Assembly (NCBI RefSeq): GCF_005405585.1
Contig: NZ_BJEQ01000017.1
Location: 1 to 64,000, forward strand
DNA: 64,000 bases
DNA from: Agarivorans sp. Toyoura001
GTDB taxonomy: Bacteria; Pseudomonadota; Gammaproteobacteria; Enterobacterales; Celerinatantimonadaceae
Direction of reading: 5' to 3'
The notes beneath the pieces are model-generated. The model had not been told where the DNA came from, searched no databases, and saw only the letters and a program-made list of their open reading frames with translations. The translations under genes were made by a program, and so were the position numbers. This document shows positions 11,868-44,885 of this stretch, in pieces. Every line of letters begins with the position of its first letter. Positions within the stretch are counted from its first letter, which is position 1.

Positions 11868-11915
11868 ATGATTTTTAACCAACTGAAGCATCATCACCAC
11901 CATCATCCAGAATAG
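11868..11915 (+). CDS. hisL: his operon leader peptide with six consecutive histidines
   Basis: A 15-codon ORF reading MIFNQLKHHHHHHPE, preceded by an AGGAA ribosome site (11856-11860). The six His codons at 11889-11906 alternate CAT and CAC. As in enteric HisL (seven His), slow translation for lack of charged His-tRNA would stall the ribosome here and change folding of the downstream leader RNA. A leader peptide this short has no expected function of its own. Confidence 0.95.
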   Translation: MIFNQLKHHHHHHPE

Positions 11916-12016
11916 GCTTCAGGCGGTTTTCTGCTGGAAGCTTGTAAGATGCTTCCGGTGGTAGAATATAAGAATATTGCAAACCCCCGGAAGGTTACCC
12001 TCCCGGGGGTTTTTTA
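11883..12016 (+). promoter_or_regulatory. his operon transcription attenuator with arms A-F
   Basis: The leader RNA has the classic alternative pairing. Arm A CTGAAGC (11883-11889) pairs with B GCTTCAG (11916-11922) around the His codons. C GGAAGC (11936-11941) pairs with D GCTTCC (11951-11956). E CCCCCGG (11984-11990) pairs with F CCGGGGG (12003-12009), followed by a T-run: the terminator. Antitermination arises from D CTTCCGG (11952-11958) pairing with E CCGGAAG (11987-11993), helped by B with C (GCTTC/GAAGC). Ribosome stalling on His codons masks A and should favour B:C and D:E, giving readthrough into hisG. Confidence 0.93.
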
Positions 12017-12039
12017 GTTTTATTATTAGGGACAAAAAC

Positions 12040-43908: not shown

Positions 43909-44454
43909 CTATTCGCCTTCAAACTCAACTAAATAGCTAGATTCGACGCCCAATGTGGTTAGCTTTTGTGCGCCTGGTAAGTCTACTAAGTTTATCACAA
44001 AGGCCGCATAATTTATCTGCCCACCAAGTTTACGAATCAGCTTAACTGAGGCTTCTGCGGTACCGCCGGTGGCAATGAGATCATCAACCAACAACACTTT
44101 ATCACCAGGCTCAATCGCATCGGTATGGATCTCAAGTGTATCCATGCCGTATTCAAGCTCGTAGCTTTCGCCGATCACTTCACGAGGCAATTTGCCAGGT
44201 TTACGCACCGGAACAAAACCCACACCCAAAGCTAAGGCTAAAGGCGCACCGAATATAAATCCGCGCGCTTCGGTACCAACAATTTTGGTAATACCTAAGT
44301 CTTCAAAACGTTGCTGCCATTCATGAATAACTAAAGCAAAAGCCTTTGGGTCTTCAATTAGGCTGGTAACATCTCTAAACAAAATGCCTTCTTTAGGATA
44401 GTTAGGGATAGTTTTGATTGCGCTTTTAATATATTCGAGGTTTGAGCTACTCAT
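43909..44454 (-). CDS. apt: Adenine phosphoribosyltransferase
   Basis: A 181-residue purine salvage enzyme converting adenine and PRPP to AMP. Motifs: '[14 protein letters not shown]', '[18 protein letters not shown]' and the PRPP loop '[18 protein letters not shown]'. The frame opens at 44466, but ATG 44454 has GGAAG five bases upstream. The upstream ATG at 44466 has only a weak site; both sit just after a rho-independent terminator in the leader. It starts the apt-dnaX-ybaB unit. Confidence 0.95.
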
Positions 44455-44471
44455 ACCGGCTTCCATTGTCC

Positions 44472-44497
44472 AAAAAAAACGCCCATAAAGGTGGGCG
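44472..44497 (-). terminator. Rho-independent terminator directly upstream of apt
   Basis: On the minus strand CGCCCA and TGGGCG (44497-44492 and 44485-44480) pair, followed by eight T (44479-44472). It ends only 5-17 bases before the candidate apt start codons. It either ends the transcript of the small ORF at 44572-44685 or attenuates apt. Confidence 0.85.
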
Positions 44498-44571
44498 CTA
44501 TTTACAATCTTTAATTATCTCAGTTTGCAGCCATAAAGCAACGTAGAGCTTCCTGAAAAACAATACAAAAT

Positions 44572-44685
44572 TTAAGCTAAAATTTTAAGTAAAGACAAAC
44601 TCAATGGTAAGGTTGGGATCAGTAGAGCCACTATAAAACCTAGTAAATATAATACGTTATAACTTTCTTTAAACTCGTGGTCCAT
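44572..44685 (-). CDS. 37-residue single-pass membrane miniprotein (candidate)
   Basis: A short ORF starting ATG at 44683-44685. It reads MDHEFKESYNVLYL, then a hydrophobic run (LGFIVALLIPTLPLSL) and ends SLLKILA, so a short acidic/aromatic N-terminus precedes one transmembrane helix. An AGGGTG site lies about 10 bases upstream. It is followed by a terminator and preceded by a perfect FNR-type box. I do not recognise it. The hydrophobic pattern, ribosome site and terminator together support a real gene, but only moderately. Confidence 0.55.
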   Translation of the reverse strand: MDHEFKESYNVLYLLGFIVALLIPTLPLSLSLLKILA

Positions 44686-44719
44686 TTCAAAAACACCCTA
44701 AAACTAATTCCAATCAACA

Positions 44720-44733
44720 TTGATCTAAATCAA
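44720..44733. promoter_or_regulatory. Perfect FNR/ANR-type box
   Basis: TTGAT-CTAA-ATCAA (44720-44733) equals the FNR consensus TTGAT-N4-ATCAA. It lies 35 bp from the miniprotein ATG on the left and 153 bp from dusC on the right. Being palindromic it gives no direction. A TACAAA at 44754-44759 could be a -10 for a rightward start near 44766. Oxygen-responsive control of one side is inferred. Confidence 0.7.
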
Positions 44734-44885
44734 TTATACGCGACTCCGTTTGCTACAAATACCCATAAAAAGAAAGGATAAAGCTATTCGAACTAAAGCG
44801 CGGGTTGCTTAGTGAGATGGTTAATTTCACTGGCTTGCTATATGCCAAACCGTTAGAATAACGCCCTTTTTTAGGTAGGTAAGTT

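Follow-up and report, generated by a model that had tools for sequence, protein, structure and literature searches.

The microprotein locus

The window (the whole stretch of DNA that was analyzed, 64,000 nucleotides, or 64 kb) carries on its minus strand an ORF that, read from the sequence, begins with ATG and comprises 37 codons. In the window's genus the ORF lies between dusC and apt, accompanied by a predicted promoter, an FNR box and an intrinsic terminator (Table 1). The positions given for the ORF, its ribosome-binding site, the FNR box and the terminator in the initial annotation all stand as they were, with no coordinate corrected.

Table 1 Features of the microprotein locus, with positions counted from the first nucleotide of the window
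Feature	Position	Strand	Basis
Gene for a 37-aa single-helix membrane microprotein (MDHEFKESYNVLYLLGFIVALLIPTLPLSLSLLKILA)	44572..44685	-	Homologues, pN/pS, predicted helix
AGGG ribosome-binding site of the microprotein ORF	44696..44699	-	Sequence; 10 nt before the ATG
FNR box TTGATCTAAATCAA, overlapping −10 and +1; predicted repressor site	44720..44733	.	Rarity, conservation, spacing
−10 element TATAAT; predicted start near 44726	44733..44738	-	Invariant in seven congeneric genomes
IscR type II-like predicted activator site TTTATCCTTTCTTTTTATGGGTATTTG, in place of a −35; ends 17 nt before the −10	44756..44782	-	
−35-like TTGCTT of the apt promoter	44536..44541	-	Conserved, 16-nt spacer, genera g1, g3 and g4
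Extended −10 (TGnGATAAT) of the apt promoter	44514..44519	-	Conserved in genera g1, g3 and g4
Intrinsic terminator; predicted to end the microprotein transcript, also inside the apt 5′ leader	44470..44499	-	Folding; present in relatives without the ORF
apt (adenine phosphoribosyltransferase), downstream gene	43909..44466	-	Likely start 44451

The ORF is a conserved microprotein gene

A translated search recovered the ORF in all seven genomes of the window's genus and in other families down to ~40% identity, and its reading frame is kept across ~10 families of the order. Among the seven congeneric genomes, pN/pS was 0.21 in the ORF frame vs. 0.53 and 3.07 in the shifted frames. Purifying selection and conservation are what a translated microprotein gene is expected to show, and both were found, the former in pN/pS and the latter in the spread over those families. 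We conclude that the ORF is a genuine conserved microprotein gene, with translation predicted from this pattern. The initial annotation had made its proposal depend on homologues of the 37-residue product in related genomes, and on conservation there of the ORF frame and the FNR box; homologues were found in the genus and in other families, many of them upstream of apt, and both frame and box are conserved.

A profile built from 18 sequences and run on 394 genomes of the order gave matches in 139. Five of the 139 are weak or come from incomplete genomes: G044 and G131 are the incomplete genomes, and the matches in G117, G300 and G314 are judged spurious, having weak scores, internal stops or a position inside a longer frame. 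A broader 44-sequence profile recovered nine extra carriers (families f2 and f7) among genomes first scored negative. The named carriers are mostly Vibrio, and also include Shewanella, Ferrimonas, Salinivibrio, Veronia and Psychromonas. A class-wide search of sampled Gammaproteobacteria outside the order returned no convincing homologue.

The homologues share the core F-K-(E/D)-P-(Y/F)-N-x-x-Y-F-L-G-F...(I/L)-P-T-L-P. AlphaFold2 predicted one helix at residues 11–36 (mean pLDDT 88), in line with the single membrane helix claimed initially, and the product is modeled as a single-helix inner-membrane protein. It matched no curated model in Pfam or NCBIfam, gave no usable match in PHROGs and no match among PDB sequences, where chains so short are easily missed; a full-text literature search for its conserved peptide words found no paper. 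At three loci (L059, L066 and L068) a gene for a KCGEGKCGGDK-repeat protein and two conserved genes come before the microprotein gene; the products of these two we take to resemble DUF692 and DUF2063 proteins (a putative bufferin-like cluster).

Relation to apt and the terminator

Outside the window's genus the gene precedes apt in other families, with or without ybaN in between, and apt lies downstream on the same strand in 78 of the 80 named loci. This arrangement, together with the fact that in the window's genus the ORF comes immediately before the terminator and apt, would suit one option raised initially, that the ORF is a leader peptide controlling terminator readthrough into apt-dnaX-ybaB. 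Synteny led us to reject that option, which we regard as highly improbable: it is not supported because homologues stand beside carA, dapB or pepD instead of apt (families f2, f11 and f12) and because a separate conserved promoter of the extended −10 type serves apt from a position downstream of the ORF. Moreover, the peptide itself is conserved, not just its position, and the terminator is present in relatives without the ORF. The ORF is better read as a putatively autonomous gene with its own predicted promoter.

The conserved promoter of apt (TTGCTT-N16-GATAAT with a TG extension; predicted start near 44507) sits between the ORF and the terminator, which places the terminator within the apt 5′ leader. 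The likely apt start is the inner ATG (44449–44451), preceded by GGAAG. The terminator stem (44478–44499, with an 8-nt T-run) folds at −12.6 kcal/mol (z = −2.6); the pattern by itself is no commoner than in shuffled sequences, and we take it as more than chance because it is conserved. Across the seven congeneric genomes no intergenic blocks are better conserved than the FNR box, the −10 and the terminator. Genus g3, which has no ORF homologue and a divergent dusC, retains both the apt promoter and the terminator, and its apt leaders are longer and fold better than shuffles (z = −3.7 to −4.0). The terminator had initially been assigned to the ORF as its own. It probably does end the microprotein transcript here, but it is retained in the apt leader of relatives that have no such ORF, and it probably doubles as an attenuator-like element of apt.

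The placement of a terminator downstream of an extended −10 in the apt leader (44470–44541; also loci L147, L150 and L155) raises the possibility of transcription attenuation of apt in its own right. Rfam returned no RNA family at the microprotein and apt-leader region; elsewhere in the window it identified a histidine operon leader at 11891–12018 (RF00514, E = 1.1e-10).

An IscR-like element in place of the −35

A Gibbs search of 96 nonredundant upstream regions found de novo a conserved 27-bp element (AATAACCCTAnTTTTnnTCGGTGTTT), whose distance to the −10 is exactly 17 nt in 38 of the 41 training sites; the same register was present in 70 of 70 named loci passing the cut, a set whose species may overlap those of the training set. 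The site in the window is the best match in the 64 kb (15.4–15.6 bits, next 8.9). This is also true of a matrix built without the window's family (15.4 bits, next 8.9), with which nine of nine tested sites of that family were the best in their own upstream regions at offset 17. The full matrix also picked out the E. coli ydiU promoter, with 24 bits and identical spacing to the −10, and gave only weak matches in the sufA and hyaA promoter regions.

IscR type II sites have the consensus half-sites WWWWCCxYA and TRxGGWWWW (PMC4055776). The left half of the element corresponds to the former and the right half is a degenerate form of the latter. At the E. coli ydiU promoter, IscR acts as an activator from a type II site and offsets a poor −35, for which GTGTTT and TGTTTA are candidates (PMC8561392). 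The microprotein gene has the arrangement of such a promoter: a type II-like site whose right half contains the −35, set in the ydiU register to the −10. Within the window's genus the left half is degenerate and the right half departs from TRxGG, and homologues in f7 and f2 are mostly without the element.

An FNR box over the predicted transcription start

The FNR box is the sole perfect TTGAT-N4-ATCAA in the 64-kb window (0.09 expected); the 4.65-Mb genome holds 25 such boxes, vs. 9 for the reversed control pattern. As expected of a member of the FNR regulon, a conserved box occupies a functional promoter position. Upstream regions of 120 loci contained 41 perfect FNR boxes, four with one mismatch and 23 CRP-type sites (TGTGA-N6-TCAC), 68 of 120 in all, and the distance from −10 to site is nearly fixed within families: −1 (an overlap) in the window's genus, 4 or 8 in f11, and in the Shewanella family 11 for FNR-type and mostly 8 to 11 for CRP-type sites. 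These distances put the site on +1 or shortly past it, as would suit a repressor. In f15 the site is just upstream of the −10, still within the core promoter, in f7 (L071 and L127) its geometry is ambiguous, and in several other families the box is 21–28 nt from the start codon. The box is also found upstream of homologues at other chromosomal sites, and among the 80 named loci (mostly Vibrio) in only four. Many Shewanella-family genomes have a CRP-type site in place of the FNR box at similar spacing, an apparent FNR-to-CRP operator swap.

FNR would be expected to repress the gene because the box overlaps the −10/+1 region, and repression fits those families with a recognizable −10 upstream. 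Class II activation by FNR, for which the box center would lie ~41.5 bp upstream of the start, was rejected because it does not agree with this overlap, a misfit that the initial annotation had already pointed out for the ORF. It had left both repression and control of dusC open. Repression fits the position. A possible dusC start also lies ~41.5 bp downstream of the box center and has TACAAA (44754–44759) where its −10 would be expected, as would be needed for FNR to activate dusC from this box. We nevertheless consider activation of dusC, or of the ORF, improbable: the box accompanies the microprotein gene to loci without dusC, the candidate dusC −10 matches the consensus at just four of six positions, and activation of the ORF would set the transcription start at the ATG or within the gene.

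Co-occurrence with cbb3 oxidase

Each of the 134 carriers that the first search identified reliably also has the cbb3 oxidase gene ccoO, the other 5 of the 139 matches being the two incomplete genomes and the three spurious matches. The microprotein gene thus occurs only with cbb3 (134/134), yet it nests equally in nqrA: in a 99-genome sample all carriers are nqrA-positive too, so that nesting alone is not cbb3-specific. Within carrier groups, ccoO and the microprotein gene are both missing from G008 and G010 (f1, genus g3) and from G025 and G068 (f15), with further co-absences in G100 (f11) and G300 (Shewanella family). Distributions of aa3 CoxB and napA fit that of the carriers less well than ccoO does. 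Close to 90 genomes with cbb3 have no detectable microprotein homologue, and in the loci read the microprotein gene was not seen next to cco genes.

We regard the co-occurrence as suggestive only of a cbb3 link. A role for the microprotein as an accessory or assembly factor of cbb3 oxidase, which we propose from this co-occurrence, is therefore put forward tentatively, at somewhat less than an even chance. A different reading, whose probability we place only a little short of even, holds that the microprotein is real and under IscR/FNR control but works in the homeostasis of Fe-S clusters or iron, or in some other membrane function of aerobic cells, and that the co-occurrence reflects just an aerobic lifestyle and shared ancestry. 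The equal nesting in nqrA and the lack of cco linkage in the loci read are in keeping with it, as is IscR-type control, which is typical of Fe-S repair genes (PMC8561392). It accounts less readily for genomes in which ccoO is co-absent within genera or families while nqrA is retained (G025, G068 and G100), or for the poorer fit of aa3 CoxB and napA.

In the window's own genome a perfect FNR box also precedes ccoN, at a distance of ~240 nt (L249, 805–818; C6:74604–74617), with flanks (ATAATTGATC...GATCAATG) resembling those of the microprotein box. In Shewanella oneidensis, expression of ccoN, ccoQ and ccoP is raised in an etrA (fnr) mutant, and an EtrA site, GTTGATCTAGATCAAT, is predicted at ccoN (PMC3078092); a rise in cAMP reduces cco expression by way of Crp (PMC4830989). 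The IscR-like motif occurs at some ccoN promoters (L254, L255, L265 and L250), inconsistently, and was not used as support; in family f12 the 27-bp element scores 19 bits upstream of the cbb3 operon (L254 and L255).

Discussion

The IscR element, the FNR-to-CRP swap and the cbb3 co-occurrence, none of which figured in the initial annotation, can be joined in one model. The microprotein gene would be transcribed from a sigma-70 promoter with a good −10 and no proper −35, with the IscR type II-like site standing where IscR activates ydiU. When Fe-S clusters are lost to oxygen or to a lack of iron, IscR, presumably in its apo form, would bring RNA polymerase to the promoter. Without oxygen, the promoter would be blocked at the FNR box, which spans −7 to +7 and is replaced by a CRP-type site in many genomes of the Shewanella family. 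Apo-IscR, abundant with oxygen or Fe-S stress, would then activate, and FNR without oxygen, or cAMP-CRP, would repress, so that the microprotein would be made in aerobic, Fe-S-stressed cells, where it may serve cbb3 oxidase as an accessory or assembly factor.

We consider it probable, from sequence comparison, that the model holds as a whole, that is, an autonomous membrane microprotein turned on by IscR and off by FNR or CRP, with a suggested link to cbb3 and with binding, direction of control and translation all predicted. The regulation is a strong prediction and the function a hypothesis. An oxygen-regulated membrane microprotein with its own short transcript, the other option raised initially, thus gains support as an oxygen-linked gene with its own predicted promoter. 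A more specific reading is possible, at distinctly less than even probability: an unnamed, order-wide cbb3 accessory microprotein whose dose would be set by two opposed Fe-S oxygen sensors on one promoter, apo-IscR recruiting polymerase at the −35 and FNR (or CRP after the site swap) blocking the start.

Regulated membrane microproteins with a single helix are few, and a family without a curated model is here added to them. Its carriers include genera with laboratory models (Shewanella and Vibrio) open to deletion and testing, and its promoter yields a clear prediction, expression switched on by IscR and off by FNR or CRP. The apparent operator swap was found in the Shewanella family, where CRP takes over much of the usual role of FNR. 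If the cbb3 link is true, the microprotein would supply a part so far missing from the oxidase that many marine bacteria mainly use in air.

CydX and CydH (YnhF) are small subunits of cytochrome bd. Like the microprotein as modeled, they are very small inner-membrane proteins with one helix and a link to oxygen respiration; no sequence relation to them was detected. CcoM, a small subunit of the Pseudomonas stutzeri cbb3 oxidase (36 aa; PMC10433244), is of similar length, and the genomes carrying the microprotein are likewise linked to cbb3. However, the microprotein had no match in the PDB sequence search, in which a chain as short as CcoM could easily be missed, and its family was not found in the sampled Gammaproteobacteria outside the order. 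The E. coli ydiU/selO promoter shares with the microprotein promoter the 27-bp element (24 bits), the 17-bp register and a poor −35 (GTGTTT/TGTTT) (PMC8561392), but it drives a large cytosolic protein, whereas in the window's genus the left half of the microprotein site is degenerate. The ccoNOQP genes of S. oneidensis, repressed by EtrA (FNR), form a multi-gene oxidase operon with measured regulation, while that of the microprotein gene is predicted; their EtrA site at ccoN contains TTGATCTAGATCAA, the same box that precedes many of the microprotein homologues (PMC3078092).
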